Shown here: in pieces, positions 41,003-64,000 of the stretch
How positions within the stretch are numbered: the stretch's first letter is position 1
How the letters are laid out: each line of letters starts with the position of its first letter
DNA from: Henricia sp. BOLD:AAB3569
Lineage: Eukaryota; Echinodermata; Asteroidea; Spinulosida; Echinasteridae
DNA length: 64,000 nt
NCBI GenBank assembly: GCA_037783545.1
Contig: JBBELK010000324.1
Location: 1 to 64,000 of the forward strand
Direction: 5' to 3'
Made by a program: the position numbers and the translations under genes
The notes under the pieces: model-generated
Seen by the model: only the letters and a program-made list of their open reading frames with translations
Told to the model about the DNA's origin: nothing
Database searches by the model: none

Positions 41003-41607
41003 AATTTTTTAGGACAAGTGCGCAATATAGAGTGCTTGGAGCATGCAAAATTTGAAGTTCGTCGGAACATTTTTCGACCTCCAAATTTGCCGACGTTTGG
41101 ACCACACTTTGACCAAAATCCCGTCCCAAACTGGGCCGTGTCAACGACAGTCCGATGGACTGAGCATGCGCACGAGTCAGGAGTACACCAAAGAGGTGTG
41201 TACAGACAGCCACAGGTTGCGGGAGCATCCAGGAAGGTCCAACCCCTTTTTTCCTAAACTCTGAAATTTCTCTGCCATTTCCGGGCGAAAGTCTGTCAAT
41301 TTTTTAGGACAAGTGCGCAATATAGAGTGCTTGGAGCATGCAAAATTTGAAGTTCGTCGGAACATTTTTCGACCTCCAAATTTGCCGACGTTTCGACCAC
41401 ACTTTGACCAAAATCCCGTCCCAAACTGGGCCGTGTCAACGACAGTCCGATGGACTGAGCATGCGCACGAGTCAGGAGTACACCAAAGAGGTGTGTACAG
41501 ACAGCCACAGGTTGCGGGAGCATCCAGGAAGCTCCAACCCCTTTTTTCCTAAACTCTGAAATTTCTCTGCCATTTCCCAGCGAAAGTCTGTCAATTTTTT
41601 AGGACAA

Positions 41608-42952
41608 GTGCGCAATATAGAGTGCTTGGAGCATGCAAAATTTGAAGTTCGTCGGAACATTTTTCGACCTCCAAATTTGCCGACGTTTGGACCACACTTT
41701 GACCAAAATCCCGTCCCAAACTGGGCCGTGTCAACGACAGTCCGATGGACTGAGCATGCGCACGAGTCAGGAGTACACCAAAGAGGTGTGTACAGACAGC
41801 CACAGGTTGCGGGAGCATCCAGGAAGCTCCAACCCATTTTTTCCTAAACTCTGAAATTTCTCTGCCATTTCCCGGCGAAAGTCTGTCAATTTTTTAGGAC
41901 AAGTGCGCAATATAGAGTGCTTGGAGCATGCAAAATTTGAAGTTCGTCGGAACATTTTTCGACCTCCAAATTTGCCGACGTTTGGACCACACTTTGACCA
42001 AAATCCCGTCCCAAACTGGGCCGTGTCAACGACAGTCCGATGGACTGAGCATGCGCACGAGTCAGGAGTACACCAAAGAGGTGTGTACAGACAGCCACAG
42101 GTTGCGGGAGCATCCAGGAAGCTCCAACCCCTTTTTTCCTAAACTCTGAAATTTCTCTGCCATTTCCCGGCGAAAGTCTGTCAATTTTTTAGGACAAGTG
42201 CGCAATATAGAGTGCTTGGAGCATGCAAAATTTGAAGTTCGTCGGAACATTTTTCGACCTCCAAATTTGCCGACGTTTGGACCACACTTTGTCCAAAATC
42301 CCGTCCCAAACTGGGCCGTGTCAACGACAGTCCGATGGACTGAGCATGCGCACGAGTCAGGAGTACACCAAAGAGGTGTGTACAGACAGCCACAGGTTGC
42401 GGGAGCATCCAGGAAGCTCCAACCCCTTTTTTCCTAAACTCTGAAATTTCTCTGCCATTTCCCAGCGAAAGTCTGTCAATTTTTTAGGACAAGTGCGCAA
42501 TATAGAGTGCTTGGAGCATGCAAAATTTGAAGTTCGTCGGAACATTTTTCGACCTCCAAATTTGCCGACGTTTGGACCACACTTTGACCAAAATCCCAAA
42601 CTGGGCCGTGTCAACGACAGTCCGATGGACTGAGCATGCGCACGAGTCAGGAGTACACCAAAGAGGTGTGTACAGACAGCCACAGGTTGCGGGAGCATCC
42701 AGGAAGCTCCAACCCCTTTTTTCCTAAACTCTGAAATTTCTCTGCCATTTCCCGGCGAAAGTCTGTCAAACTGGGCCGTGTCAACGACAGTCCGATGGAC
42801 TGAGCATGCGCACGAGTCAGGAGTACACCAAAGAGGTGTGTACAGATAGCCACAGGTTGCGGGAGCATCCAGGAAGCTCCAACCCCTTTTTTCCTAAACT
42901 CTGAAATTTCTCTGCCATTTCCCGGCGAAAGTCTGTCAATTTTTTAGGACAA
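41608..42952 (+). repeat. 1345-bp module, dispersed copy
   Basis: Order: 41608 (cccatttttt), 41903 plain, 42198 (tttgtcc, cccagcg), 42493 (5-bp deletion), then a truncated unit. The same order and length recur in tandem at 50402 and 51747, about 9 kb away. Confidence 0.88.
42768..42937 (+). repeat. Truncated unit 3 (170 bp)
   Basis: Caa junction as in the others. Carries cagatagcc, shared only with truncated unit 4 at 43823, so these two are direct duplicates. Confidence 0.95.
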
Positions 42953-43822
42953 GTGCGCAATATAGAGTGCTTGGAGCATGCAAAATTTGAAGTTCGTCGG
43001 AACATTTTTCGACCTCCAAATTTGCCGACGTTTGGACCACACTTTGACCAAAATCCCGTCCCAAACTGGGCCGTGTCAACGACAGTCCGATGGACTGAGC
43101 ATGCGCACGAGTCAGGAGTACACCAAAGAGGTGTGTACAGACAGCCACAGGTTGCGGGAGCATCCAGGAAGCTCCAACCCCTTTTTTCCTAAACTCTGAA
43201 ATTTCTCTGCCATTTCCCGGCGAAAGTCTGTCAATTTTTTAGGACAAGTGCGCAATATAGAGTGCTTGGAGCATGCAAAATTTGAAGTTCGTCGGAACAT
43301 TTTTCGACCTCCACATTTGCCGACGTTTGGACCACACTTTGACCAAAATCCCGTCCCAAACTGGGCCGTGTCAACGACAGTCCGATGGACTGAGCATGCG
43401 CACGAGTCAGGAGTACACCAAAGAGGTGTGTACAGACAGCCACAGGTTGCGGGAGCATCCAGGAAGCTCCAACCCCTTTTTTCCTAAACTCTGAAATTTC
43501 TCTGCCATTTCCCGGCGAAAGTCTGTCAATTTTTTAGGACAAGTGCGCAATATAGAGTGCTTGGAGCATGCAAAATTTGAAGTTCGTCGGAACATTTATC
43601 GACCTCCAAATTTGCCGACGTTTGGACCACACTTTGACCAAAATCCCGTCCCAAACTGGGCCGTGTCAACGACAGTCCGATGGACTGAGCATGCGCACGA
43701 GTCAGGAGTACACCAAAGAGGTGTGTACAGACAGCCACAGGTTGCGGGAGCATCCAGGAAGCTCCAACCCCTTTTTTCCTAAACTCTGAAATTTCTCTGC
43801 CATTTCCCGGCGAAAGTCTGTC
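42768..43822 (+). repeat. 1055-bp tandem duplication, copy 1
   Basis: Truncated unit with cagatagcc, then 42953 plain, 43248 (ccacattt) and 43543 (acatttatcg). All four repeat immediately in the same order. Confidence 0.9.
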
Positions 43823-43992
43823 AAACTGGGCCGTGTCAACGACAGTCCGATGGACTGAGCATGCGCACGAGTCAGGAGTACACCAAAGAGGTGTGTACAG
43901 ATAGCCACAGGTTGCGGGAGCATCCAGGAAGCTCCAACCCCTTTTTTCCTAAACTCTGAAATTTCTCTGCCATTTCCCGGCGAAAGTCTGTC
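43823..43992 (+). repeat. Truncated unit 4 (170 bp)
   Basis: The only truncated unit not preceded by a 5-bp-deletion unit: it follows 43543, which is full length. This is expected if the 1055-bp segment was duplicated with its breakpoint just before the truncated unit. Confidence 0.95.
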
Positions 43993-44877
43993 AATTTTTT
44001 AGGACAAGTGCGCAATATAGAGTGCTTGGAGCATGCAAAATTTGAAGTTCGTCGGAACATTTTTCGACCTCCAAATTTGCCGACGTTTGGACCACACTTT
44101 GACCAAAATCCCGTCCCAAACTGGGCCGTGTCAACGACAGTCCGATGGACTGAGCATGCGCACGAGTCAGGAGTACACCAAAGAGGTGTGTACAGACAGC
44201 CACAGGTTGCGGGAGCATCCAGGAAGCTCCAACCCCTTTTTTCCTAAACTCTGAAATTTCTCTGCCATTTCCCGGCGAAAGTCTGTCAATTTTTTAGGAC
44301 AAGTGCGCAATATAGAGTGCTTGGAGCATGCAAAATTTGAAGTTCGTCGGAACATTTTTCGACCTCCACATTTGCCGACGTTTGGACCACACTTTGACCA
44401 AAATCCCGTCCCAAACTGGGCCGTGTCAACGACAGTCCGATGGACTGAGCATGCGCACGAGTCAGGAGTACACCAAAGAGGTGTGTACAGACAGCCACAG
44501 GTTGCGGGAGCATCCAGGAAGCTCCAACCCCTTTTTCCCTAAACTCTGAAATTTCTCTGCCATGTCCCGGCGAAAGTCTGTCAATTTTTTAGGACAAGTG
44601 CGCAATATAGAGTGCTTGGAGCATGCAAAATTTGAAGTTCGTCGGAACATTTATCGACCTCCAAATTTGCCGACGTTTGGACCACACTTTGACCAAAATC
44701 CCGTCCCAAACTGGGCCGTGTCAACGACAGTCCGATGGACTGAGCATGCGCACGAGTCAGGAGTACACCAAAGAGGTGTGTACAGACAGCCACAGGTTGC
44801 GGGAGCATCCAGGAAGCTCCAACCCCTTTTTTCCTAAACTCTGAAATTTCTCTGCCATTTCCCGGCGAAAGTCTGTC
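43823..44877 (+). repeat. 1055-bp tandem duplication, copy 2
   Basis: Truncated unit with cagatagcc, then 44008, 44303 (ccacattt; plus ctttttccc and catgtccc, absent from copy 1) and 44598 (acatttatcg). Its second half is also the start of the 2525-bp HOR. Confidence 0.9.
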
Positions 44878-46827
44878 AATTTTTTAGGACAAGTGCGCAA
44901 TATAGAGTGCTTGGAGCATGCAAAATTTGAAGTTCGTCGGAACATTTTTCGACCTCCAAATTTGCCGACGTTTCGACCACACTTTGACCAAAATCCCGTC
45001 CCAAACTGGGCCGTGTCAACGACAGTCCGATGGACTGAGCATGCGCACGAGTCAGGAGTACACCAAAGAGGTGTGTACAGACAGCCACAGGTTGCGGGAG
45101 CATCCAGGAAGCTCCAACCCCTTTTTTCCTAAACTCTGAAATTTCTCTGCCATTTCCCGGCGAAAGTCTGTCAATTTTTTAGGACAAGTGCGCAATATAG
45201 AGTGCTTGGAGCATGCAAAATTTGAAGTTCGTCGGAACATTTTTCGACCTCCAAATTTGCCGACGTTTGGACCACACTTTGACCAAAATCCCGTCCCAAA
45301 CTGGGCCGTGTCAACGACAGTCCGATGAACTGAGCATGCGCACGAGTCAGGAGTACACCAAAGAGGTGTGTACAGACAGCCACAGGTTGCGGGAGCATCC
45401 AGGAAGCTCCAACCCCTTTTTTCCTAAACTCTGAAATTTCTCTGCCATTTCCGGGCGAAAGTCTGTCAATTTTTTAGGACAAGTGCGCAATATAGAGTGC
45501 TTGGAGCATGCAAAATTTGAAGTTCGTCGGAACATTTTTCGACCTCCAAATTTGCCGACGTTTGGACCACACTTTGTCCAAAATCCCGTCCCAAACTGGG
45601 CCGTGTCAACGACAGTCCGATGGACTGAGCATGCGCACGAGTCAGGAGTACACCAAAGAGGTGTGTACAGACAGCCACAGGTTGCGGGAGCATCCAGGAA
45701 GCTCCAACCCCTTTTTTCCTAAACTCTGAAATTTCTCTGCCATTTCCCAGCGAAAGTCTGTCAATTTTTTAGGACAAGTGCGCAATATAGAGTGCTTGGA
45801 GCATGCACAATTTGAAGTTCGTCGGAACATTTTTCGACCTCCAAATTTGCCGACGTTTGGACCACACTTTGACCAAAATCCCAAACTGGGCCGTGTCAAC
45901 GACAGTCCGATGGACTGAGCATGCGCACGAGTCAGGAGTACACCAAAGAGGTGTGTACAGACAGCCACAGGTTGCGGGAGCATCCAGGAAGCTCCAACCC
46001 CTTTTTTCCTAAACTCTGAAATTTCTCTGCCATTTCCCGGCGAAAGTCTGTCAAACTGGGCCGTGTCAACGACAGTCCGATGGACTGAGCATGCGCACGA
46101 GTCAGGAGTACACCAAAGAGGTGTGTACAGACAGCCACAGGTTGCGGGAGCATCCAGGAAGCTCCAACCCCTTTTTTCCTAAACTCTGAAATTTCTCTGC
46201 CATTTCCCGGCGAAAGTCTGTCAATTTTTTAGGACAAGTGCGCAATATAGAGTGCTTGGAGCATGCAAAATTTGAAGTTCGTCGGAACATTTTTCGACCT
46301 CCAAATTTGCCGACGTTTGGACCACACTTTGACCAAAATCCCGTCCCAAACTGGGCCGTGTCAACGACAGTCCGATGGACTGAGCATGCGCACGAGTCAG
46401 GAGTACACCAAAGAGGTGTGTACAGACAGCCACAGGTTGCGGGAGCATCCAGGAAGCTCCAACCCCTTTTTTCCTAAACTCTGAAATTTCTCTGCCATTT
46501 CCCGGCGAAAGTCTGTCAATTTTTTAGGACAAGTGCGCAATATAGAGTGCTTGGAGCATGCAAAATTTGAAGTTCGTCGGAACATTTTTCGACCTCCAAA
46601 TTTGCCGACGTTTGGACCACACTTTGACCAAAATCCCGTCCCAAACTGGGCCGTGTCAACGACAGTCCGATGGACTGAGCATGCGCACGAGTCAGGAGTA
46701 CACCAAAGAGGTGTGTACAGACAGCCACAGGTTGCGGGAGCATCCAGGAAGCTCCAACCCATTTTTTCCTAAACTCTGAAATTTCTCTGCCATTTCCCGG
46801 CGAAAGTCTGTCAATTTTTTAGGACAA
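44303..46827 (+). repeat. 2525-bp HOR copy 1 (eight full units plus one truncated)
   Basis: Units in order: 44303 (ccacattt, ctttttccc, catgtccc), 44598 (acatttatcg), 44893 (tttcgacc), 45188 (gatgaact, ends ttccgggcg), 45483 (tttgtcc, cccagcg), 45778 (gcacaattt, 5-bp deletion), truncated 46053-46222, 46238, and 46533 (cccatttttt). Repeated directly from 46828. The only marker difference I saw is c at 44974 (tttcgacc). Confidence 0.93.
46053..46222 (+). repeat. Truncated unit 5 (170 bp)
   Basis: Caa junction; follows the 5-bp-deletion unit 45778. Part of 2525-bp HOR copy 1. Confidence 0.95.
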
Positions 46828-49352
46828 GTGCGCAATATAGAGTGCTTGGAGCATGCAAAATTTGAAGTTCGTCGGAACATTTTTCGACCTCCACATTTGC
46901 CGACGTTTGGACCACACTTTGACCAAAATCCCGTCCCAAACTGGGCCGTGTCAACGACAGTCCGATGGACTGAGCATGCGCACGAGTCAGGAGTACACCA
47001 AAGAGGTGTGTACAGACAGCCACAGGTTGCGGGAGCATCCAGGAAGCTCCAACCCCTTTTTCCCTAAACTCTGAAATTTCTCTGCCATGTCCCGGCGAAA
47101 GTCTGTCAATTTTTTAGGACAAGTGCGCAATATAGAGTGCTTGGAGCATGCAAAATTTGAAGTTCGTCGGAACATTTATCGACCTCCAAATTTGCCGACG
47201 TTTGGACCACACTTTGACCAAAATCCCGTCCCAAACTGGGCCGTGTCAACGACAGTCCGATGGACTGAGCATGCGCACGAGTCAGGAGTACACCAAAGAG
47301 GTGTGTACAGACAGCCACAGGTTGCGGGAGCATCCAGGAAGCTCCAACCCCTTTTTTCCTAAACTCTGAAATTTCTCTGCCATTTCCCGGCGAAAGTCTG
47401 TCAATTTTTTAGGACAAGTGCGCAATATAGAGTGCTTGGAGCATGCAAAATTTGAAGTTCGTCGGAACATTTTTCGACCTCCAAATTTGCCGACGTTTGG
47501 ACCACACTTTGACCAAAATCCCGTCCCAAACTGGGCCGTGTCAACGACAGTCCGATGGACTGAGCATGCGCACGAGTCAGGAGTACACCAAAGAGGTGTG
47601 TACAGACAGCCACAGGTTGCGGGAGCATCCAGGAAGCTCCAACCCCTTTTTTCCTAAACTCTGAAATTTCTCTGCCATTTCCCGGCGAAAGTCTGTCAAT
47701 TTTTTAGGACAAGTGCGCAATATAGAGTGCTTGGAGCATGCAAAATTTGAAGTTCGTCGGAACATTTTTCGACCTCCAAATTTGCCGACGTTTGGACCAC
47801 ACTTTGACCAAAATCCCGTCCCAAACTGGGCCGTGTCAACGACAGTCCGATGAACTGAGCATGCGCACGAGTCAGGAGTACACCAAAGAGGTGTGTACAG
47901 ACAGCCACAGGTTGCGGGAGCATCCAGGAAGCTCCAACCCCTTTTTTCCTAAACTCTGAAATTTCTCTGCCATTTCCGGGCGAAAGTCTGTCAATTTTTT
48001 AGGACAAGTGCGCAATATAGAGTGCTTGGAGCATGCAAAATTTGAAGTTCGTCGGAACATTTTTCGACCTCCAAATTTGCCGACGTTTGGACCACACTTT
48101 GTCCAAAATCCCGTCCCAAACTGGGCCGTGTCAACGACAGTCCGATGGACTGAGCATGCGCACGAGTCAGGAGTACACCAAAGAGGTGTGTACAGACAGC
48201 CACAGGTTGCGGGAGCATCCAGGAAGCTCCAACCCCTTTTTTCCTAAACTCTGAAATTTCTCTGCCATTTCCCAGCGAAAGTCTGTCAATTTTTTAGGAC
48301 AAGTGCGCAATATAGAGTGCTTGGAGCATGCACAATTTGAAGTTCGTCGGAACATTTTTCGACCTCCAAATTTGCCGACGTTTGGACCACACTTTGACCA
48401 AAATCCCAAACTGGGCCGTGTCAACGACAGTCCGATGGACTGAGCATGCGCACGAGTCAGGAGTACACCAAAGAGGTGTGTACAGACAGCCACAGGTTGC
48501 GGGAGCATCCAGGAAGCTCCAACCCCTTTTTTCCTAAACTCTGAAATTTCTCTGCCATTTCCCGGCGAAAGTCTGTCAAACTGGGCCGTGTCAACGACAG
48601 TCCGATGGACTGAGCATGCGCACGAGTCAGGAGTACACCAAAGAGGTGTGTACAGACAGCCACAGGTTGCGGGAGCATCCAGGAAGCTCCAACCCCTTTT
48701 TTCCTAAACTCTGAAATTTCTCTGCCATTTCCCGGCGAAAGTCTGTCAATTTTTTAGGACAAGTGCGCAATATAGAGTGCTTGGAGCATGCAAAATTTGA
48801 AGTTCGTCGGAACATTTTTCGACCTCCAAATTTGCCGACGTTTGGACCACACTTTGACCAAAATCCCGTCCCAAACTGGGCCGTGTCAACGACAGTCCGA
48901 TGGACTGAGCATGCGCACGAGTCAGGAGTACACCAAAGAGGTGTGTACAGACAGCCACAGGTTGCGGGAGCATCCAGGAAGCTCCAACCCCTTTTTTCCT
49001 AAACTCTGAAATTTCTCTGCCATTTCCCGGCGAAAGTCTGTCAATTTTTTAGGACAAGTGCGCAATATAGAGTGCTTGGAGCATGCAAAATTTGAAGTTC
49101 GTCGGAACATTTTTCGACCTCCAAATTTGCCGACGTTTGGACCACACTTTGACCAAAATCCCGTCCCAAACTGGGCCGTGTCAACGACAGTCCGATGGAC
49201 TGAGCATGCGCACGAGTCAGGAGTACACCAAAGAGGTGTGTACAGACAGCCACAGGTTGCGGGAGCATCCAGGAAGCTCCAACCCATTTTTTCCTAAACT
49301 CTGAAATTTCTCTGCCATTTCCCGGCGAAAGTCTGTCAATTTTTTAGGACAA
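46828..49352 (+). repeat. 2525-bp HOR copy 2
   Basis: Units 46828, 47123, 47418, 47713, 48008, 48303, truncated 48578-48747, 48763 and 49058 match copy 1 at an exact shift of 2525 bp, including ctttttccc with catgtccc and gatgaact. Near identity implies a recent duplication, or an assembly effect that long reads could exclude. Confidence 0.93.
48578..48747 (+). repeat. Truncated unit 6 (170 bp)
   Basis: Caa junction; follows 5-bp-deletion unit 48303. Duplicate of truncated unit 5 by the 2525-bp event. Confidence 0.95.
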
Positions 49353-50401
49353 GTGCGCAATATAGAGTGCTTGGAGCATGCAAAATTTGAAGTTCGTCGG
49401 AACATTTTTCGACCTCCAAATTTGCCGACGTTTGGACCACACTTTGACCAAAATCCCGTCCCAAACTGGGCCGTGTCAACGACAGTCCGATGGACTGAGC
49501 ATGCGCACGAGTCAGGAGTACACCAAAGAGGTGTGTACAGACAGCCACAGGTTGCGGGAGCATCCAGGAAGCTCCAACCCCTTTTTTCCTAAACTCTGAA
49601 ATTTCTCTGCCATTTCCCAGCGAAAGTCTGTCAATTTTTTAGGACAAGTGCGCAATATAGAGTGCTTGGAGCATGCACAATTTGAAGTTCGTCGGAACAT
49701 TTTTCGACCTCCAAATTTGCCGACGTTTGGACCACACTTTGACCAAAATCCCAAACTGGGCCGTGTCAACGACAGTCCGATGGACTGAGCATGCGCACGA
49801 GTCAGGAGTACACCAAAGAGGTGTGTACAGACAGCCACAGGTTGCGGGAGCATCCAGGAAGCTCCAACCCCTTTTTCCTAAACTCTGAAATTTCTCTGCC
49901 ATTTCCCGGCGAAAGTCTGTCAAACTGGGCCGTGTCAACGACAGTCCGATGGACTGAGCATGCGCACGAGTCAGGAGTACACCAAAGAGGTGTGTACAGA
50001 CAGCCACAGGTTGCGGGAGCATCCAGGAAGCTCCAACCCCTTTTTTCCTAAACTCTGAAATTTCTCTGCCATTTCCCGGCGAAAGTCTGTCAATTTTTTA
50101 GGACAAGTGCGCAATATAGAGTGCTTGGAGCATGCAAAATTTGAAGTTCGTCGGAACATTTTTCGACCTCCAAATTTGCCGACGTTTGGACCACACTTTG
50201 ACCAAAATCCCGTCCCAAACTGGGCCGTGTCAACGACAGTCCGATGGACTGAGCATGCGCACGAGTCAGGAGTACACCAAAGAGGTGTGTACAGACAGCC
50301 ACAGGTTGCGGGAGCATCCAGGAAGCTCCAACCCCTTTTTTCCTAAACTCTGAAATTTCTCTGCCATTTCCCGGCGAAAGTCTGTCAATTTTTTAGGACA
50401 A
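49353..50401 (+). repeat. Shortened module with chimeric unit 49353
   Basis: Unit 49353 has the normal tttgacc at position 95 but cccagcg near 267, so its 5' part matches the plain unit and its 3' part the tttgtcc unit of the 1345-bp module. It replaces two units with one. Then follow 49648 (gcacaattt, 5-bp deletion, T5 run), truncated unit 7, and 50107 plain. Confidence 0.82.
49922..50091 (+). repeat. Truncated unit 7 (170 bp)
   Basis: Caa junction; follows 5-bp-deletion unit 49648, which has one T fewer in its C/T run. Confidence 0.95.
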
Positions 50402-51746
50402 GTGCGCAATATAGAGTGCTTGGAGCATGCAAAATTTGAAGTTCGTCGGAACATTTTTCGACCTCCAAATTTGCCGACGTTTGGACCACACTTTGACCAA
50501 AATCCCGTCCCAAACTGGGCCGTGTCAACGACAGTCCGATGGACTGAGCATGCGCACGAGTCAGGAGTACACCAAAGAGGTGTGTACAGACAGCCACAGG
50601 TTGCGGGAGCATCCAGGAAGCTCCAACCCATTTTTTCCTAAACTCTGAAATTTCTCTGCCATTTCCCGGCGAAAGTCTGTCAATTTTTTAGGACAAGTGC
50701 GCAATATAGAGTGCTTGGAGCATGCAAAATTTGAAGTTCGTCGGAACATTTTTCGACCTCCAAATTTGCCGACGTTTGGACCACACTTTGACCAAAATCC
50801 CGTCCCAAACTGGGCCGTGTCAACGACAGTCCGATGGACTGAGCATGCGCACGAGTCAGGAGTACACCAAAGAGGTGTGTACAGACAGCCACAGGTTGCG
50901 GGAGCATCCAGGAAGCTCCAACCCCTTTTTTCCTAAACTCTGAAATTTCTCTGCCATTTCCCGGCGAAAGTCTGTCAATTTTTTAGGACAAGTGCGCAAT
51001 ATAGAGTGCTTGGAGCATGCAAAATTTGAAGTTCGTCGGAACATTTTTCGACCTCCAAATTTGCCGACGTTTGGACCACACTTTGTCCAAAATCCCGTCC
51101 CAAACTGGGCCGTGTCAACGACAGTCCGATGGACTGAGCATGCGCACGAGTCAGGAGTACACCAAAGAGGTGTGTACAGACAGCCACAGGTTGCGGGAGC
51201 ATCCAGGAAGCTCCAACCCCTTTTTTCCTAAACTCTGAAATTTCTCTGCCATTTCCCAGCGAAAGTCTGTCAATTTTTTAGGACAAGTGCGCAATATAGA
51301 GTGCTTGGAGCATGCAAAATTTGAAGTTCGTCGGAACATTTTTCGACCTCCAAATTTGCCGACGTTTGGACCACACTTTGACCAAAATCCCAAACTGGGC
51401 CGTGTCAACGACAGTCCGATGGACTGAGCATGCGCACGAGTCAGGAGTACACCAAAGAGGTGTGTACAGACAGCCACAGGTTGCGGGAGCATCCAGGAAG
51501 CTCCAACCCCTTTTTTCCTAAACTCTGAAATTTCTCTGCCATTTCCCGGCGAAAGTCTGTCAAACTGGACCGTGTCAACGACAGTCCGATGGACTGAGCA
51601 TGCGCACGAGTCAGGAGTACACCAAAGAGGTGTGTACAGACAGCCACAGGTTGCGGGAGCATCCAGGAAGCTCCAACCCCTTTTTTCCTAAACTCTGAAA
51701 TTTCTCTGCCATTTCCCGGCGAAAGTCTGTCAATTTTTTAGGACAA
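50402..51746 (+). repeat. 1345-bp module, tandem copy 1
   Basis: Units 50402 (cccatttttt), 50697 plain, 50992 (tttgtcc, cccagcg), 51287 (5-bp deletion, caaaattt) and a truncated unit with aaactggacc. The next 1345 bp repeat all of it, including aaactggacc. Confidence 0.92.
51562..51731 (+). repeat. Truncated unit 8 (170 bp)
   Basis: Caa junction; private aaactggacc shared only with truncated unit 9. Confidence 0.95.
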
Positions 51747-53091
51747 GTGCGCAATATAGAGTGCTTGGAGCATGCAAAATTTGAAGTTCGTCGGAACATT
51801 TTTCGACCTCCAAATTTGCCGACGTTTGGACCACACTTTGACCAAAATCCCGTCCCAAACTGGGCCGTGTCAACGACAGTCCGATGGACTGAGCATGCGC
51901 ACGAGTCAGGAGTACACCAAAGAGGTGTGTACAGACAGCCACAGGTTGCGGGAGCATCCAGGAAGCTCCAACCCATTTTTTCCTAAACTCTGAAATTTCT
52001 CTGCCATTTCCCGGCGAAAGTCTGTCAATTTTTTAGGACAAGTGCGCAATATAGAGTGCTTGGAGCATGCAAAATTTGAAGTTCGTCGGAACATTTTTCG
52101 ACCTCCAAATTTGCCGACGTTTGGACCACACTTTGACCAAAATCCCGTCCCAAACTGGGCCGTGTCAACGACAGTCCGATGGACTGAGCATGCGCACGAG
52201 TCAGGAGTACACCAAAGAGGTGTGTACAGACAGCCACAGGTTGCGGGAGCATCCAGGAAGCTCCAACCCCTTTTTTCCTAAACTCTGAAATTTCTCTGCC
52301 ATTTCCCGGCGAAAGTCTGTCAATTTTTTAGGACAAGTGCGCAATATAGAGTGCTTGGAGCATGCAAAATTTGAAGTTCGTCGGAACATTTTTCGACCTC
52401 CAAATTTGCCGACGTTTGGACCACACTTTGTCCAAAATCCCGTCCCAAACTGGGCCGTGTCAACGACAGTCCGATGGACTGAGCATGCGCACGAGTCAGG
52501 AGTACACCAAAGAGGTGTGTACAGACAGCCACAGGTTGCGGGAGCATCCAGGAAGCTCCAACCCCTTTTTTCCTAAACTCTGAAATTTCTCTGCCATTTC
52601 CCAGCGAAAGTCTGTCAATTTTTTAGGACAAGTGCGCAATATAGAGTGCTTGGAGCATGCAAAATTTGAAGTTCGTCGGAACATTTTTCGACCTCCAAAT
52701 TTGCCGACGTTTGGACCACACTTTGACCAAAATCCCAAACTGGGCCGTGTCAACGACAGTCCGATGGACTGAGCATGCGCACGAGTCAGGAGTACACCAA
52801 AGAGGTGTGTACAGACAGCCATAGGTTGCGGGAGCATCCAGGAAGCTCCAACCCCTTTTTTCCTAAACTCTGAAATTTCTCTGCCATTTCCCGGCGAAAG
52901 TCTGTCAAACTGGACCGTGTCAACGACAGTCCGATGGACTGAGCATGCGCACGAGTCAGGAGTACACCAAAGAGGTGTGTACAGACAGCCACAGGTTGCG
53001 GGAGCATCCAGGAAGCTCCAACCCCTTTTTTCCTAAACTCTGAAATTTCTCTGCCATTTCCCGGCGAAAGTCTGTCAATTTTTTAGGACAA
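51747..53091 (+). repeat. 1345-bp module, tandem copy 2
   Basis: Units 51747 (cccatttttt), 52042, 52337 (tttgtcc, cccagcg), 52632 (5-bp deletion) and the truncated unit at 52907. A private change, gccatagg, lies in 52632. Confidence 0.92.
52907..53076 (+). repeat. Truncated unit 9 (170 bp)
   Basis: Caa junction and aaactggacc; duplicate of truncated unit 8. Confidence 0.95.
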
Positions 53092-53681
53092 GTGCGCAAT
53101 ATAGAGTGCTTGGAGCATGCAAAATTTGAAGTTCGTCGGAACATTTATCGACCTCCAAATTTGCCGACGTTTGGACCACACTTTGACCAAAATCGCGTCC
53201 CAAACTGGGCCGTGTCAACGACAGTCCGATGGACTGAGCATGCGCACGAGTCAGGAGTACACCAAAGAGGTGTGTACAGACAGCCACAGGTTGCGGGAGC
53301 ATCCAGGAAGCTCCAACCCCTTTTTTCCTAAACTCTGAAATTTCTCTGCCATTTCCCGGCGAAAGTCTGTCAATTTTTTAGGACAAGTGCGCAATATAGA
53401 GTGCTTGGAGCATGCAAAATTTGAAGTTCGTCGGAACATTTTTCGACCTCCAAATTTGCCGACGTTTCGACCACACTTTGACCAAAATCCCGTCCCAAAC
53501 TGGGCCGTGTCAACGACAGTCCGATGGACTGAGCATGCGCACGAGTCAGGAGTACACCAAAGAGGTGTGTACAGACAGCCACAGGTTGCGGGAGCATCCA
53601 GGAAGCTCCAACCCCTTTTTTCCTAAACTCTGAAATTTCTCTGCCATTTCCCGGCGAAAGTCTGTCAATTTTTTAGGACAA
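53092..53681 (+). repeat. Two units after the last tandem module
   Basis: Unit 53092 has acatttatcg with aatcgcgtcc, and 53387 has tttcgacc. The same linked pair recurs at 58570-59159, where 58570 is the only other unit with aatcgcgtcc. Confidence 0.85.
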
Positions 53682-55155
53682 GTGCGCAATATAGAGTGCT
53701 TGGAGCATGCAAAATTTGAAGTTCGTCGGAACATTTTTCGACCTCCACATTTGCCGACGTTTGGACCACACTTTGACCAAAATCCCGTCCCAAACTGGGC
53801 CGTGTCAACGACAGTCCGATGGACTGAGCATGCGCACGAGTCAGGAGTACACCAAAGAGGTGTGTACAGACAGCCACAGGTTGCGGGAGCATCCAGGAAG
53901 CTCCAACCCCTTTTTTCCTAAACTCTGAAATTTCTCTGCCATTTCCCGGCGAAAGTCTGTCAATTTTTTAGGACAAGTGCGCAATATAGAGTGCTTGGAG
54001 CATGCAAAATTTGAAGTTCGTCGGAACATTTATCGACCTCCAAATTTGCCGACGTTTGGACCACACTTTGACCAAAATCCCGTCCCAAACTGGGCCGTGT
54101 CAACGACAGTCCGATGGACTGAGCATGCGCACGAGTCAGGAGTACACCAAAGAGGTGTGTACAGACAGCCACAGGTTGCGGGAGCATCCAGGAAGCTCCA
54201 ACCCCTTTTTTCCTAAACTCTGAAATTTCTCTGCCATTTCCCGGCGAAAGTCTGTCAATTTTTTAGGACAAGTGCGCAATATAGAGTGCTTGGAGCATGC
54301 AAAATTTGAAGTTCGTCGGAACATTTTTCGACCTCCAAATTTGCCGACGTTTCGACCACACTTTTACCAAAATCCCGTCCCAAACTGGGCCGTGTCAACG
54401 ACAGTCCGATGGACTGAGCATGCGCACGAGTCAGGAGTACACCAAAGAGGTGTGTACAGACAGCCACAGGTTGCGGGAGCATCCAGGAAGCTCCAACCCC
54501 TTTTTTCCTAAACTCTGAAATTTCTCTGCCATTTCCCGGCGAAAGTCTGTCAATTTTTTAGGACAAGTGCGCAATATAGAGTGCTTGGAGCATGCAAAAT
54601 TTGAAGTTCGTCGGAACATTTTTCGACCTCCAAATTTGCCGACGTTTGGACCACACTTTGACCAAAATCCCGTCCCAAACTGGGCCGTGTCAACGACAGT
54701 CCGATGGACTGAGCATGCGCACGAGTCAGGAGTACACCAAAGAGGTGTGTACAGACAGCCACAGGTTGCGGGAGCATCCAGGAAGCTCCAACCCCTTTTT
54801 CCTAAACTCTGAAATTTCTCTGCCATTTCCCGGCGAAAGTCTGTCAATTTTTTAGGACAAGTGCGTAATATAGAGTGCTTGGAGCATGCAAAATTTGAAA
54901 TTCGTCGGAACATTTTTCGACCTCCAAATTTGCCGACGTTTGGACCACACTTTGACCAAAATCCCGTCCCAAACTGGGCCGTGTCAACGACAGTCCGATG
55001 GACTGAGCATGCGCACGAGTCAGGAGTACACCAAAGAGGTGTGTACAGACAGCCACAGGTTGCGGGAGCATCCAGGAAGCTCCAACCCCTTTTTTCCTAA
55101 ACTCTGAAATTTATCTGCCATTTCCCGGCGAAAGTCTGTCAATTTTTTAGGACAA
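53682..55155 (+). repeat. Right-zone pentamer, copy 1 (1474 bp)
   Basis: Units 53682 (ccacattt), 53977 (acatttatcg), 54272 (tttcgacc, cttttacc), 54567 (T5 run, 294 bp) and 54861 (gtgcgtaat, gaaattcg, ends aatttatctg). Repeated at 58275 with a shift of 4593 bp. Confidence 0.88.
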
Positions 55156-55450
55156 GTGCGCAATATAGAGTGCTTGGAGCATGCAAAATTTGAAGTTCGT
55201 CGGAACATTTTTCGACCTCCAAATTTGCCGACGTTTGGACCACACTTTGACCAAAATCCCGTCCCAAACTGGGCCGTGTCAACGACAGTCCGATGGACTG
55301 AGCATGCGCACGAGTCAGGAGTACACCAAAGAGGTGTGTACAGACAGCCACAGGTTGCGGGAGCATCCAGGAAGCTCCAACCCCTTTTTTCCTAAACTCT
55401 GAAATTTCTCTGCCATTTCCCGGCGAAAGTCTGTAAATTTTTTAGGACAA

Positions 55451-55749
55451 GTGCGCAATATAGAGTGCTTGGAGCATGCAAAATTTGAAGTTCGTCGGAA
55501 CATTTTTCGACCTCCAAATTTGCCGACGTTTGGACCACACTTTGACCAAAATCCCGTCCCAAACTGGGCCGTGTCAACGACAGTCCGATGGACTGAGCAT
55601 GCGCACGAGTCAGGAGTACACCAAAGAGCTAGGTGTGTACAGACAGCCACAGGTTGCGGGAGCATCCAGGAAGCTCCAACCCCTTTTTTCCTAAACTCTG
55701 AAATTTCTCTGCCATTTCCCGGCGAAAGTCTGTCAATTTTTTAGGACAA
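55451..55749 (+). repeat. Isolated ctag-insertion unit (299 bp)
   Basis: Ctag lies at 55629-55632, the same position as in the 21-35 kb cluster and 20.4 kb from its nearest relative at 35046. The preceding unit ends with tgtaaattt, as before ctag units 25933, 30370, 31823 and 35046, so a segment longer than one unit is shared. Confidence 0.9.
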
Positions 55750-56634
55750 GTGCGCAATATAGAGTGCTTGGAGCATGCAAAATTTGAAGTTCGTCGGAAC
55801 ATTTTTCGACCTCCAAATTTGCCGACGTTTGGACCACACTTTGTCCAAAATCCCGTCCCAAACTGGGCCGTGTCAACGACAGTCCGATGGACTGAGCATG
55901 CGCACGAGTCAGGAGTACACCAAAGAGGTGTGTACAGACAGCCGCAGGTTGCGGGAGCATCCAGGAAGCTCCAACCCCTTTTTTCCTAAACTCTGAAATT
56001 TCTCTGCCATTTCCCAGCGAAAGTCTGTCAATTTTTTAGGACAAGTGCGCAATATAGAGTGCTTGGAGCATGCAAAATTTGAAGTTCGTCGGAACATTTT
56101 TCAACCTCCAAATTTGCCGACGTTTGGACCACACTTTGACCAAAATCCCGTCCCAAACTGGGCCGTGTCAACGACAGTCCGATGGACTGAGCATGCGCAC
56201 GAGTCAGGAGTACACCAAAGAGGTGTGTACAGACAGCCACAGGTTGCGGGAGCATCCAGGAAGCTCCAACCCCTTTTTTCCTAAACCCTGAAATTTCTCT
56301 GCCATTTCCCGGCGAAAGTCTGTCAATTTTTTAGGACAAGTGCGCAATATAGAGTGCTTGGAGCATGCAAAATTTGAAGTTCGTCGGAACATTTTTCGAC
56401 CTCCAAATCTGCCGACGTTTGGACCACACTTTGACCAAAATCCCGTCCCAAACTGGGCCGTGTCAACGACAGTCCGATGGACTGAGCATGCGCACGACTC
56501 AGGAGTACACCAAAGAGGTGTGTACAGACAGCCACAGGTTGCGGGAGCATCCAGGAAGCTCCAACCCCTTTTTTCCTCAACTCTGAAATTTCTCTGCCAT
56601 TTCCCGGCGAAAGTCTGTCAATTTTTTAGGACAA
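55750..56634 (+). repeat. Right-zone trimer, copy 1
   Basis: Units 55750 (tttgtcc, cccagcg; private gccgcagg), 56045 (tttttcaacc, aaaccctg) and 56340 (aatctgccg, cgactcagg, cctcaac). The first two and the start of the third recur at 60044 with a shift of 4294 bp. Confidence 0.85.
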
Positions 56635-57519
56635 GTGCGCAATATAGAGTGCTTGGAGCATGCAAAATTTGAAGTTCGTCGGAACATTTTTCGACCTCCA
56701 AATTTGCCGACGTTTGGACCACACTTTGACCAAAATCCCGTCCCAAACTGGGCCGTGTCAACGACAGTCCGATGGACTGAGCATGCGCACGAGTCAGGAG
56801 TACACCAAAGAGGTGTGTACAGACAGCCACAGGTTGCGGGAGCATCCAGGAAGCTCCAACCCCTTTTTTCCTAAACTCTGAAATTTCTCTGCCATTTCCA
56901 GGCGAAAGTCTGTCAATTTTTTAGGACAAGTGCGCAATATAGAGTGCTTGGAGCATGCAAAATTTGAAGTTCGTCGGAACATTTTTCGACCTCCAAATTT
57001 GCCGACTTTGGACCACACTTTGACCAAAATCCCGTCCCAAACTGGGCCGTGTCAACGACAGTCCGATGGACTGAGCATGCGCACGAGTCAGGAGTACCCC
57101 AAAGAGGTGTGTACAGACAGCCACAGGTTGCGGGAGCATCCAGGAAGCTCCAATCCCTTTTTTCCTAAACTCTGAAATTTCTCTGCCATTTCCCGGCGAA
57201 AGTCTGTCAATTTTTTAGGACAAGTGCGCAATATAGAGTGCTTGGAGCATGCAAAATTTGAAGTTCGTCGAAAAAATTTTCGACCTCTAAATTTGCCGAC
57301 GTTTGGACCACACTTTGACCAAAATCCCGTCCCAAACTGGGCCGTGTCAACGACAGTCCGATGGACTGAGCATGCGCACGAGTCAGGAGTACACCAAAGA
57401 GGTGTGTACAGACAGCCACAGGTTGCGGGAGCATCCAGGAAGCTCCAACCCCTTTTTTTCCTAAACTCTGAAATTTATCTGCCATTTCCCGGCGAAAGTC
57501 TGTCAATTTTTTAGGACAA
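56340..57519 (+). repeat. Right-zone tetramer, copy 1 (1180 bp)
   Basis: Units 56340 (aatctgccg, cctcaac), 56635 (ends ttccaggcg), 56930 (gccgactttgg, taccccaaag, ctccaatccc, 294 bp) and 57224 (near-palindrome variant, c65 to t, T7 run, aatttatctg). Recurs at 61815 with a shift of 5475 bp. Confidence 0.87.
57267..57284. other. Altered palindrome, A6T4 form
   Basis: In unit 57224 the 44-61 element reads GTCGAAAAAATTTTCGAC. Compared with the reference it has g48, c51 and t53 all changed to a. It shares c65 to t with the two perfect-palindrome units and is their relative, one base away from perfect symmetry. Confidence 0.85.
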
Positions 57520-57794
57520 GTGCGCAATATAGAGTGCTTGGAGCATGCAAAATTTGAAGTTCGTCGGAACATTTTTCGACCTCCAAATTTGCCGACGTTT
57601 GGACCACACTTTGACCAAAATCCCAAACTGGGCCGTGTCAACGACAGTCCGATGGACTGAGCATGCGCACGAGTCAGGAGTACACCAAAGAGGTGTGTAC
57701 AGACAGCCACAGGTTGCGGGAGCATCCAGGAAGCTCCAACCCCTTTTTTCCTAAACTCTGAAATTTCTCTGCCATTTCCCGGCGAAAGTCTGTC

Positions 57795-57964
57795 AAACTG
57801 GGCCGTGTCAACGACAGTCCGATGGACTGAGCATGCGCACGAGTCAGGAGTACACCAAAGAGGTGTGTACAGACAGCCACAGGTTGCGGGAGCATCCAGG
57901 AAGCTCCAACCCCTTTTTTCCTAAACTCTGAAATTTCTCTGCCATTTCCCGGCGAAAGTCTGTC
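57795..57964 (+). repeat. Truncated unit 10 (170 bp)
   Basis: Caa junction; follows 5-bp-deletion unit 57520. It is the last truncated unit in the window, 4.9 kb from the previous one. Confidence 0.95.
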
Positions 57965-57979
57965 AATTTTTTAGGACAA

Positions 57980-58274
57980 GTGCGCAATATAGAGTGCTTG
58001 GAGCATGCAAAATTTGAAGTTCGTCGGAACATTTTTCGACCTCCAAATTTGCCGACGTTTGGACCACACTTTGACCAAAATCCCGTCCCAAACTGGGCCG
58101 TGTCAACGACAGTCCGATGGACTGAGCATGCGCACGAGTCAGGAGTACACCAAAGAGGTGTGTACAGACAGCCACAGGTTGCGGGAGCATCCAGGAAGCT
58201 CCAACCCCTTTTTTCCTAAACTCTGAAATTTCTCTGCCATTTCCCGGCGAAAGTCTGTCAATTTTTTAGGACAA
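57980..58274 (+). repeat. Plain unit opening the second right-zone block
   Basis: The order truncated, plain, ccacattt, acatttatcg, tttcgacc from 57795 matches 43823-45187, linking this block to the 42-45 kb modules. Confidence 0.8.
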
Positions 58275-59748
58275 GTGCGCAATATAGAGTGCTTGGAGCA
58301 TGCAAAATTTGAAGTTCGTCGGAACATTTTTCGACCTCCACATTTGCCGACGTTTGGACCACACTTTGACCAAAATCCCGTCCCAAACTGGGCCGTGTCA
58401 ACGACAGTCCGATGGACTGAGCATGCGCACGAGTCAGGAGTACACCAAAGAGGTGTGTACAGACAGCCACAGGTTGCGGGAGCATCCAGGAAGCTCCAAC
58501 CCCTTTTTTCCTAAACTCTGAAATTTCTCTGCCATTTCCCGGCGAAAGTCTGTCAATTTTTTAGGACAAGTGCGCAATATAGAGTGCTTGGAGCATGCAA
58601 AATTTGAAGTTCGTCGGAACATTTATCGACCTCCAAATTTGCCGACGTTTGGACCACACTTTGACCAAAATCGCGTCCCAAACTGGGCCGTGTCAACGAC
58701 AGTCCGATGGACTGAGCATGCGCACGAGTCAGGAGTACACCAAAGAGGTGTGTACAGACAGCCACAGGTTGCGGGAGCATCCAGGAAGCTCCAACCCCTT
58801 TTTTCCTAAACTCTGAAATTTCTCTGCCATTTCCCGGCGAAAGTCTGTCAATTTTTTAGGACAAGTGCGCAATATAGAGTGCTTGGAGCATGCAAAATTT
58901 GAAGTTCGTCGGAACATTTTTCGACCTCCAAATTTGCCGACGTTTCGACCACACTTTGACCAAAATCCCGTCCCAAACTGGGCCGTGTCAACGACAGTCC
59001 GATGGACTGAGCATGCGCACGAGTCAGGAGTACACCAAAGAGGTGTGTACAGACAGCCACAGGTTGCGGGAGCATCCAGGAAGCTCCAACCCCTTTTTTC
59101 CTAAACTCTGAAATTTCTCTGCCATTTCCCGGCGAAAGTCTGTCAATTTTTTAGGACAAGTGCGCAATATAGAGTGCTTGGAGCATGCAAAATTTGAAGT
59201 TCGTCGGAACATTTTTCGACCTCCAAATTTGCCGACGTTTGGACCACACTTTGACCAAAATCCCGTCCCAAACTGGGCCGTGTCAACGACAGTCCGATGG
59301 ACTGAGCATGCGCACGAGTCAGGAGTACACCAAAGAGGTGTGTACAGACAGCCACAGGTTGCGGGAGCATCCAGGAAGCTCCAACCCCTTTTTCCTAAAC
59401 TCTGAAATTTCTCTGCCATTTCCCGGCGAAAGTCTGTCAATTTTTTAGGACAAGTGCGTAATATAGAGTGCTTGGAGCATGCAAAATTTGAAATTCGTCG
59501 GAACATTTTTCGACCTCCAAATTTGCCGACGTTTGGACCACACTTTGACCAAAATCCCGTCCCAAACTGGGCCGTGTCAACGACAGTCCGATGGACTGAG
59601 CATGCGCACGAGTCAGGAGTACACCAAAGAGGTGTGTACAGACAGCCACAGGTTTCGGGAGCATCCAGGAAGCTCCAACCCCTTTTTTCCTAAACTCTGA
59701 AATTTATCTGCCATTTCCCGGCGAAAGTCTGTCAATTTTTTAGGACAA
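58275..59748 (+). repeat. Right-zone pentamer, copy 2 (1474 bp)
   Basis: Units 58275 (ccacattt), 58570 (acatttatcg plus aatcgcgtcc), 58865 (tttcgacc), 59160 (T5, 294 bp) and 59454 (gtgcgtaat, gaaattcg, aggtttcgg, aatttatctg). Unit 58570 matches 53092 rather than its positional partner 53977, so the copy is a mosaic. Confidence 0.88.
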
Positions 59749-60043
59749 GTGCGCAATATAGAGTGCTTGGAGCATGCAAAATTTGAAGTTCGTCGGAACA
59801 TTTTTCGACCTCCAAATTTGCCGACGTTTCGACCACACTTTGACCAAAATCCCGTCCCAAACTGGGCCGTATCAACGACAGTCCGATGGACTGAGCATGC
59901 GCACGAGTCAGGAGTACACCAAAGAGGTGTGTACAGACAGCCACAGGTTGCGGGAGCATCCAGGAAGCTCAAACCCCTTTTTTCCTAAACTCTGAAATTT
60001 CTCTGCCATTTCCCGGCGAAAGTCTGTCAATTTTTTAGGACAA

Positions 60044-60928
60044 GTGCGCAATATAGAGTGCTTGGAGCATGCAAAATTTGAAGTTCGTCGGAACATTTTT
60101 AGACCTCCAAATTTGCCGACGTTTGGACCACACTTTGTCCAAAATCCCGTCCCAAACTGGGCCGTGTCAACGACAGTCCGATGGACTGAGCATGCGCACG
60201 AGTCAGGAGTACACCAAAGAGGTGTGTACAGACAGCCACAGGTTGCGGGAGCATCCAGGAAGCTCCAACCCCTTTTTTCCTAAACTCTGAAATTTCTCTG
60301 CCATTTCCCAGCGAAAGTCTGTCAATTTTTTAGGACAAGTGCGCAATATAGAGTGCTTGGAGCATGCAAAATTTGAAGTTCGTCGGAACATTTTTCAACC
60401 TCCAAATTTGCCGACGTTTGGACCACACTTTGACCAAAATCCCGTCCCAAACTGGGCCGTGTCAACGACAGTCCGATGGACTGAGCATGCGCACGAGTCA
60501 GGAGTACACCAAAGAGGTGTGTACAGACAGCCACAGGTTGCGGGAGCATCCAGGAAGCTCCAACCCCTTTTTTCCTAAACCCTGAAATTTCTCTGCCATT
60601 TCCCGGCGAAAGTCTGTCAATTTTTTAGGACAAGTGCGCAATATAGAGTGCTTGGAGCATGCAAAATTTGAAGTTCGTCGGAACATTTTTCGACCTCCAA
60701 ATCTGCCGACGTTTGGACCACACTTTGACCAAAATCCCGTCCCAAACTGGGCCGTGTCAACGACAGTCCGATGGACTGAGCATGCGCACGAGTCAGGAGT
60801 ACACCAAAGAGGTGTGTACAGACAGCCACAGGTTGCGGGAGCATCCAGGAAGCTCCAATCCCTTTTTTCCTAAACTCTGAAATTTCTCTGCCATTTCCCG
60901 GCGAAAGTCTGTCAATTTTTTAGGACAA
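60044..60928 (+). repeat. Right-zone trimer, copy 2, with chimeric third unit
   Basis: Units 60044 (tttgtcc, cccagcg, tttttagacc), 60339 (tttttcaacc, aaaccctg) and 60634. Unit 60634 starts like 56340 (aatctgccg) but ends like 56930 (ctccaatccc) and is followed by a palindrome unit, as 56930 is. This fits an exchange that removed two units. Confidence 0.87.
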
Positions 60929-61224
60929 GTGCGCAATATAGAGTGCTTGGAGCATGCAAAATTTGAAGTTCGTCGAAAAATTTTTCGACCTCTAAATTTG
61001 CCGACGTTTGGACCACACTTTGACCAAAATCCCGTCCCAAACTGGGCCGTGTCAACGACAGTCCGATGGACTGAGCATGCGCACGAGTCAGGAGTACACC
61101 AAAGAGGTGTGTACAGACAGCCACAGGTTGCGGGAGCATCCAGGAAGCTCCAACCCCTTTTTTTCCTAAACTCTGAAATTTATCTGCCATTTCCCGGCGA
61201 AAGTCTGTCAATTTTTTAGGACAA
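60929..61224 (+). repeat. Perfect-palindrome unit 1 (296 bp)
   Basis: Matches 57224 in c65 to t, T7 run and aatttatctg, but has the perfect 18-bp palindrome instead of the A6T4 form. Confidence 0.9.
60972..60989. other. Perfect 18-bp palindrome
   Basis: GTCGAAAAATTTTTCGAC reads the same on both strands. Relative to the usual element only g48 and c51 have changed, both to a, and these are exactly the two mismatched positions of the imperfect palindrome. Confidence 0.95.
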
Positions 61225-61814
61225 GTGCGCAATATAGAGTGCTTGGAGCATGCAAAATTTGAAGTTCGTCGGAACATTTTTCGACCTCCAAATTTGCCGA
61301 CGTTTGGACCACACTTTGACCAAAATCCCGTCCCAAACTGGGCCGTGTCAACGACAGTCCGATGGACTGAGCATGCGCACGAGTCAGGAGTACACCAAAG
61401 AGGTGTGTACAGACAGCCACAGGTTGCGGGAGCATCCAGGAAGCTCCAACCCCTTTTTTCCTAAACTCTGAAATTTCTCTGCCATTTCCCGGCGAAAGTC
61501 TGTCAATTTTTTAGGACAAGTGCGCAATATAGAGTGTTTGGAGCATGCAAAATTTGAAGTTCGTCGGAACATTTTTCGACCTCCAAATCTGCCGACGTTT
61601 GGACCACACTTTGACCAAAATCCCGTCCCAAACTGGGCCGTGTCAACGACAGTCCGATGGACTGAGCATGCGCACGAGTCAGGAGTACACCAAAGAGGTG
61701 TGTACAGACAGCCACAGGTTGCGGGAGCATCCAGGAAGCTCCAACCCCTTTTTTCCTAAACTCTGAAATTTCTCTGCCATTTCCCCGCGAAAGTCTGTCA
61801 ATTTTTTAGGACAA

Positions 61815-62993
61815 GTGCGCAATATAGAGTGCTTGGAGAATGCAACATTTGAAGTTCGTCGGAACATTTTTCGACCTCCAAATCTGCCGACGTTTGGACC
61901 ACACTTTGACCAAAATCCCGTCCCAAACTGGGCCGTGTCAACGACAGTCCGATGGACTGAGCATGCGCACGAGTCAGGAGTACACCAAAGAGGTGTGTAC
62001 AGACAGCCACAGGTTGCGGGAGCATCCAGGAAGCTCCAACCCCTTTTTTCCTCAACTCTGAAATTTCTCTGCCATTTCCCGGCGAAAGTCTGTCAATTGT
62101 TTAGGACAAGTGCGCAATATAGAGTGCTTGGAGCATGCAAAATTTGAAGTTCGTCGGAACATTTTTCGACCTCCAAATTTGCCGACGTTTGGACCACACT
62201 TTGACCAAAATCCCGTCCCAAACTGGGCCGTGTCAACGACAGTCCGATGGACTGAGCATGCGCACGAGTCAGGAGTACACCAAAGAGGTGTGTACAGACA
62301 GCCACAGGTTGCGGGAGCATCCAGGAAGCTCCAACCCCTTTTTTCCTAAACTCTGAAATTTCTCTGCCATTTCCCGGCGAAAGTCTGTCAATTTTTTAGG
62401 ACAAGTGCGCAATATAGAGTGCTTGGAGCATGCAAAATTTAAAGTTCGTCGGAACATTTTTCGACCTCCAAATTTGCCGACTTTGGACCACACTTTGACC
62501 AAAATCCCGTCCCAAACTGGGCCGTGTCAACGACAGTCCGATGGACTGAGCATGCGCACGAGTCAGGAGTACCCCAAAGAGGTGTGTACAGACAGCCACA
62601 GGTTGCGGGAGCATCCAGGAAGCTCCAATCCCTTTTTTCCTAAACTCTGAAATTTCTCTGCCATTTCCCGGCGAAAGTCTGTCAATTTTTTAGGACAAGT
62701 GCGCAATATAGAGTGCTTGGAGCATGCAAAATTTGAAGTTCGTCGAAAAATTTTTCGACCTCTAAATTTGCCGACGTTTGGACCACACTTTGACCAAAAT
62801 CCCGTCCCAAACTGGGCCGTGTCAACGACAGTCCGATGGACTGAGCATGCGCACGAGTCAGGAGTACACCAAAGAGGTGTGTACAGACAGCCACAGGTTG
62901 CGGGAGCATCCAGGAAGCTCCAACCCCTTTTTTCCTAAACTCTGAAATTTCTCTGCCATTTCCCGGCGAAAGTCTGTCAATTTTTTAGGACAA
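61815..62993 (+). repeat. Right-zone tetramer, copy 2 (1179 bp)
   Basis: Units 61815 (gagaatgcaac, aatctgccg, cctcaac, attgttt), 62110 plain, 62405 (aaatttaaag, gccgactttgg, taccccaaag, ctccaatccc, 294 bp) and 62699 (perfect palindrome). Order matches 56340-57519. Confidence 0.87.
62742..62759. other. Perfect 18-bp palindrome, second copy
   Basis: Same sequence as 60972-60989, in unit 62699, which also has c65 to t. This unit has the normal T6 run and tctctg, so it is not a simple copy of 60929. Confidence 0.95.
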
Positions 62994-63879
62994 GTGCGCA
63001 ATATAGAGTGTTTGGAGCATGCAAAATTTGAAGTTCGTCGGAACATTTTTCGACCTCCAAATCTGCCGACGTTTGGACCACACTTTGACCAAAATCCCGT
63101 CCCAAACTGGGCCGTGTCAACGACAGTCCGATGGACTGAGCATGCGCACGAGTCAGGAGTACACCAAAGAGGTGTGTACAGACAGCCACAGGTTGCGGGA
63201 GCATCCAGGAAGCTCCAACCCCTTTTTTCCTAAACTCTGACATTTCTCTGCCATTTCCCGGCGAAAGTCTGTCAATTTTTTAGGACAAGTGCGCAATATA
63301 GAGTGCTTGGAGCATGCAAAATTTGAAGTTCGTCGGAACATTTTTCGACCTCCAAATTAGCCGACGTTTGGACCACACTTTGACCAAAATCCCGTCCCAA
63401 ACTGGGCCGTGTCAACGACAGTCCGATGGACTGAGCATGCGCACGAGTCAAGAGTACACCAAAGAGGTGTGTACAGACAGCCACAGGTTGCGGGAGCATC
63501 CAGGAAGCTCCAACCCCTTTTTTTCCTAAACTCTGAAATTTCTCTGTCATTTCCCGGCGAAAGTCTGTCAATTGTTTAGGACAAGTGCGCAATATAGAGT
63601 GCTTGGAGCATGCAAAATTTGAAGTTCGTCGGAACATTTTTCGACCTCCAAATCTGCCGACGTTTGGACCACACTTTGACCAAAATCCCGTCCCAAACTT
63701 GGCCGTGTCAACGACAGTCCGATGGACTGAGCATGCGCACGAGTCAGGAGTACACCAAAGAGGTGTGTACAGACAGCCACAGGTTGCGGGAGCATCCAGG
63801 AAGCTCCAACCCCTTTTTTCCTAAACTCTGAAATTTCTCTGCCATTTCCGGGCGAAAGTCTGTCAATTTTTTAGGACAA
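62994..63879 (+). repeat. Last three complete units
   Basis: Unit 62994 has gagtgtttgg and aatctgccg, a set shared with 61520. Unit 63289 has aattagcc, gtcaagag, T7, tctgtcatt and attgttt. Unit 63585 has aatctgccg, caaacttgg and ends ttccgggcg. Confidence 0.85.
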
Positions 63880-64000
63880 GTGCGCAATATAGAGTGCTTG
63901 GAGCATGCAAAATTTGAAGTTCGTCGGAACATTTTTCGACCTCCAAATTTGCCGACGTTTCGACCACACTTTGACCAAAATCCCGTCCCAAACTGGGCCG
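63880..64000 (+). repeat. Partial unit at right window edge
   Basis: Carries tttcgacc and directly follows a ttccgggcg end, a pairing also seen at 36230/36525, 37116/37411 and 41018/41313. The window stops at unit position 121, so the array continues to the right. Confidence 0.95.

Follow-up and report, generated by a model that had tools for sequence, protein, structure and literature searches.

Two base changes that perfect an 18-bp palindrome in one lineage of 295-bp satellite units: a plausible instance of templated mutation

Imperfect inverted repeats, or quasipalindromes, are reportedly corrected by an intermolecular strand switch, going by the title of a 1997 study by Rosche, Trinh and Sinden (cited in PMC7202029). 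In Saccharomyces cerevisiae, multinucleotide changes at inverted repeats with arms of at least 7 bp and spacers of up to 70 make the arms identical by template switching, and an intermolecular route is described (PMC8604942). In great apes, short-range events comprise at least two changes within 10 nucleotides, with a template in reverse orientation within 100 nucleotides (PMC7954356). No report of a quasi-palindrome in satellite DNA with an inverted repeat was found in open-licence PubMed Central under the spellings tried. At the locus described here, as in the correction attributed to Rosche and colleagues, the mismatched bases of one arm have become the complement of the other arm, and we regard the locus, in an otherwise ordinary satellite array, as a likely example of a kind of mutation that is already known; one event is no proof of this.

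The window, i.e. the whole 64-kb stretch of DNA that was analysed, is occupied throughout by one array of 295-bp units (Table 1), and as a long head-to-tail array of near-identical units it is satellite DNA. An array of this type suggests that the source is a eukaryote. Unit numbering was set with position 1 at 60929. Regular units make up 198 of the 211 and were aligned to a 295-bp consensus; their mean divergence is 1.70 substitutions per unit, and together they contain 121 distinct SNVs. Excluded from this alignment were 13 irregular units (269, 276 and 459–492 bp) and the partial last unit, and SNV counts ignore the initial seven bases of the unit at the start of the window. The sample of 198 units was used for the SNV, shuffle, unit-lag, array-wide symmetry and close-pair counts, and counts of the element at unit positions 44–61 cover all 212 elements in the window. 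Among unit lags of 1–20, inspected for a higher-order period, a lag of 15 alone stands out, and weakly so, with 0.29 of pairs having one difference or none compared with 0.14–0.22 at the other lags.

Several units differ in length. Nine of the irregular ones, 459–465 bp long (40066, 42493, 43543, 45778, 48303, 49648, 51287, 52632 and 57520, spanning 40066–57980), carry a partial second copy of ~165–170 bp and are confined to the part of the window from 40 to 58 kb, where TRF also reports a period of 169–170 at nine places. Irregular unit 40526 is 492 bp long (460 + 32) and contains a 32-bp tandem duplication, CACGAGTCAGGAGTACACCAAAGAGGTGTGTA, at 40844–40909. Eleven 299-bp units (21501–35344 and 55451) share a four-base insertion after unit position 176, which sits in the loop of the inverted repeat GTACAC...GTGTAC (166–171/181–186).

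Table 1. Coordinates in the window of the satellite array, the variant elements and the markers linked to them.
Feature	Position	Strand	Details
295-bp satellite array, head-to-tail	1..64000	.	TRF, 216.4 copies
Three overlapping imperfect inverted repeats (31-44/58-71, 43-55/66-78, 44-52/53-61)	60959..61006	.	Unit positions 31-78
Perfect 18-bp palindrome, GTCGAAAAATTTTTCGAC	60972..60989	.	Unit 60929, positions 44-61; G48A, C51A
Perfect palindrome, second copy, GTCGAAAAATTTTTCGAC	62742..62759	.	Unit 62699
Third carrier, GTCGAAAAAATTTTCGAC	57267..57284	.	Unit 57224; G48A + C51A + T53A
Linked change C65T, four bases outside the element	60993	.	Also 57288, 62763; no other unit
Linked marker C226T, in the preceding unit and 113 bp to the left of the element	60859	.	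Also 57154, 62629

The usual form of the element at 44–61, GTCGGAACATTTTTCGAC, is found exactly in 188 of the 212 elements and pairs at seven of its nine arm positions; the mispaired ones are 48/57 and 51/54. Units 60929 and 62699 depart from the consensus within the element at 48 and 51 only, and the resulting sequence is identical to its own reverse complement. G48A and C51A each transfer right-arm sequence to the left arm, and a pre-existing imperfect inverted repeat has thereby gone from 7/9 to 9/9 paired positions, provided that the majority form is ancestral. A preliminary description of this DNA had given the coordinates and letters of the two perfect copies, the seven-of-nine pairing of the usual element with its two mismatches, and the restriction of the changes to 48 and 51 in these two units, and all of this is borne out. 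Its list of carriers was right for both units and missed a third, unit 57224, in which T53A breaks the central pair such that its element is no perfect palindrome. G48A and C51A are found together in all three carriers, and either one alone in none of the 212 elements.

Three further units (10614, 31259 and 32712) have deletions of 19 and 26 bp with right ends inside the left arm of the element. Their joints have 2–3 bases in common, as judged by eye, and the deletions in 31259 and 32712 look like one copied event.

Unequal exchange and conversion in satellite arrays spread a single haplotype and leave mosaic flanks. This process accounts for the presence of one haplotype in three units here, and no difference from it was seen: units 57224, 60929 and 62699 all descend from one haplotype, and their flanks are mosaic. 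All three carry C65T, and in all three the left neighbour has C226T, which is present in just four of 210 left neighbours overall (197 of them scorable). Units 57224 and 62699 have flanks that match exactly over 300 bp on the left and 174 bp on the right; for 57224 and 60929 the corresponding lengths are 168 bp and 340 bp, and for 60929 and 62699 they are 168 bp and 174 bp. Random pairs of usual elements have a median flank identity of 57 bp on the left and 44 bp on the right; an identity of 300 bp is attained by 2.2% of them on the left side and by 2.1% on the right side, and 0.9% jointly reach 168 bp on the left and 174 bp on the right. An inserted T after position 229 and C253A are common to 57224 and 60929 and absent in 62699. 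The common descent of the carriers thus follows from the linked C65T, the C226T of the left neighbour and the long identical flanks, which together rule out independent corrections at 60929 and 62699. Since the three carriers form one lineage, there is one mutational event to explain, not two. More generally, a variant that recurs within a tandem array is not to be taken for repeated mutation, and flanking markers can reveal the difference.

The likelihoods that we attach below to four competing explanations of this event are judgements and not computed values. Our preferred reading, to which we give roughly an even chance, is that G48A and C51A arose in one short interstrand template switch and that the haplotype was duplicated afterwards. 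One ancestral satellite unit would have gained both changes together, when a nascent strand that had passed through the right arm (TTTTTCGAC) switched to the opposite strand as its template, copied the right arm in reverse orientation over at least positions 48–51 and then returned, converting the left arm to GTCGAAAAA. The haplotype, with C65T, would then have been duplicated within ~5.5 kb by unequal exchange or conversion to yield units 57224, 60929 and 62699, one of which (57224) would have T53A in addition. We infer the simultaneity of the two changes, the right-arm template, the strand involved and the ancestral status of the majority form; the direction from right arm to left arm is drawn from which bases changed, given that the majority form is ancestral. 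If 48 and 51 did arise together, a switch templated by the right arm predicts exactly the bases observed.

The preliminary description had proposed quasipalindrome correction, either by copying from the opposite arm or by template switching. Copying within the same strand fails at position 51. In the predicted fold of the usual + strand, seven pairs enclose a 4-nt loop that holds both 51 and 54, and the lowest-energy fold of the usual − strand forms just three pairs within the element and leaves a loop of 13 nt. Both predicted folds are weak. A two-base hairpin loop is, to our knowledge, impossible. Because 51 would be an unpaired base in the loop of such a hairpin, its correction would require a switch to a different strand, which is free of this limit. 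The broader proposal of correction gains from the co-occurrence of the two changes and from the completion of pairing by both; it loses in that there is one lineage only, that C65T is left unexplained, and that completing changes are not in excess over the array as a whole (see below). No single template for 48, 51 and 65 was found within 150 bp in either orientation, and as C65T has no template in common with 48 and 51, changes evidently reach the carrier haplotype by other routes too.

Sequential point mutation could have produced the entire haplotype, with G48A, C51A and C65T accumulating in one lineage, the symmetry being accidental and the intermediate either lost by turnover or lying outside the window. 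We consider this possible but unlikely. In its favour, C>A and G>A rank with the most frequent types in the array (19 and 14 of the 121 distinct SNVs respectively); C65T, which adds no symmetry, sits on the carrier haplotype; and three units have G48T without C51A. Against it stands the lack of any element with G48A or C51A singly. How often accident would produce such symmetry was gauged by shuffles, in which SNV positions were permuted among equal bases with their carriers kept. The 44–61 element was completed in just 61 of 20000 shuffles (0.3%), which argues against point mutation, and an imperfect inverted repeat of any kind with at least two mismatches and no spacer was completed in 3 of 2000, both candidates being the 44–61 element. 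When spacers of up to 4 are admitted the count rises to 37 of 2000 (1.9%), and with spacers of up to 20 such a case is produced in 28 of 300 (9%), as point mutation would allow.

The derived sequence at 44–53 is a 10-base reverse-complement match to 52–61. Of 6000 random doublets drawn with spectrum weighting, 28 equal this length, and so do 56 of 25560 when doublets within 10 bp are enumerated exhaustively; if two G/C sites no more than 10 bp apart are both changed to A, one of the 677 possible pairs reaches a 10-base match, and it is the 48/51 pair itself. If the substitutions in the element are taken singly, the probability of two or more completing ones among 10 is 0.17 with uniform and 0.23 with spectrum-weighted substitution. 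The chance tests were all chosen after the case had been seen, and their P values are individual and not mutually corrected. The case is suggestive if the element is specified in advance, and becomes weak when its selection from among others is taken into account. The contention of the preliminary description that two matched corrections are unlikely by chance accordingly fits the element taken by itself (61 of 20000) and is tempered by there being one event and by the 28 of 300 in the widest class.

Sequential point mutation also sits well with the lack of a symmetry bias across the array. When SNVs that complete pairing are counted across the unit's imperfect inverted repeats, they number 7 against 5.7 expected (P 0.35) by a first definition, and 15 against 14.6 (P 0.49) and 1 against 1.8 (P 0.83) by two further definitions.

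With no excess of completing SNVs, a general symmetry-restoring process acting over the unit was rejected. The same holds for a quasipalindrome mutation hotspot: of the ten distinct substitutions in the element among regular units, seven break pairing, two complete it and one is neutral, and in the absence of an excess of completing substitutions 44–61 is not classed as a hotspot. Co-occurrence and a preference for symmetry had been named in the preliminary description as the points to check across all units; the former is upheld for the one lineage of carriers, there being no single-step forms in the window, and the latter is not, given that most of the distinct substitutions break symmetry. 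The element is moreover one of three imperfect inverted repeats that overlap at 31–78 and compete for shared bases. G48A completes a pair of 44–52/53–61 and breaks one of the overlapping 43–55/66–78, C51A completes a pair in two of the repeats, and C65T breaks a pair in one.

An untemplated multinucleotide mutation, such as an error-prone polymerase might make, would have introduced both changes at once with coincidental symmetry. Simultaneous changes do occur in this array, in that 5 adjacent SNV pairs are co-inherited where 1.1 would be expected, with 48, 51, 53 and 65 excluded (P 0.006). Of the eight other close clusters, all but one are without a notable template match in either orientation. 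We nevertheless find this explanation improbable. It predicts no particular bases, and the probability that a random, spectrum-weighted pair of substitutions within the element completes both pairs is 0.0044; in addition, the excess stands out only between immediate neighbours, whereas 48 and 51 are three apart. With the case excluded, close clusters number 6 against 3.2 expected within 3 bp (P 0.07), 7 against 5.0 within 5 bp (P 0.22) and 8 against 8.8 within 10 bp (P 0.70); with the case included, there are 10 pairs within 3 bp against 3.7 (P 0.004) and 15 within 10 bp against 12.1 (P 0.22). Some double changes in the array arise together, and the excess fades with distance.

Adjacent G/C doublets are seen in units 13545 and 15020 (C193A C194A), in 5011, 14725 and 16200 (G204T G205T), in 18855 (C171T C172A) and in 34456 (C109A C110G), the changes being carried together in each. 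No notable template match was found near the adjacent G/C doublets (CC>AA, GG>TT etc.).

Conversion from a diverged satellite relative that already had A48, A51 and T65 would account in one tract for all three linked changes, C65T included, and exchange or conversion between units is evident in the mosaic flanks, but we judge it quite improbable in that the 64-kb window holds no such donor and the carriers have no further within-unit difference common to all of them, although a short tract would need none.

In all, 15 SNV groups (some nested) were searched for templates in two orientations. An inverted template is absent from all eight of the other close clusters (P 0.06 or above in each). Units 26822 and 28006 share T279A, C280A and A282T (27100–27103 and 28284–28287), which turn positions 275–284 into a 10-base direct copy of 243–252, 32 bp upstream. 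This match is equalled by 27 of 6000 spectrum-weighted random triplets, or by 45 of 6000 when either orientation is counted. Two such matches among 15 groups and two orientations are of interest and no proof. It is a tentative and rather doubtful suggestion that the array records short templated mutations, with at least one inverted switch (48/51) and one direct (279–282), and that template switching seeds satellite diversity alongside point mutation.

A role for the element in RNA or as a structure was considered and set aside. No Rfam family reaches its gathering score in 58001–64000, and within 60629–61819 the single match is at chance level (E 3.6); there are no tRNAs in 60000–64000, and DNA fold z-scores for five stretches range from −0.39 to −1.09. 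A distant-mode search yielded no relatives of unit 60929 in phages or plasmids, and an exact 26-base pattern is absent from the viral contigs and prokaryote genome contigs searched. Four pieces of the sequence have no occurrence in the open-licence PubMed Central literature, and a '295 bp' satellite is not mentioned among the matches listed there.

If the template-switch reading of the 48/51 pair is true, satellite arrays would offer hundreds of near-identical targets for counting short templated mutations, and such counts would run against a known background. Relative to the correction attributed to Rosche and colleagues, the present case differs in being a single inherited change inferred from sequence. 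The yeast examples (PMC8604942) are set in a strain phylogeny and many genes, whereas the 48/51 change lies in a satellite unit. The great-ape switches were called by a pair-HMM with calibrated thresholds (PMC7954356); in the spacing of its changes and in its proposed inverted template, the 48/51 cluster resembles the short-range template switches described there.
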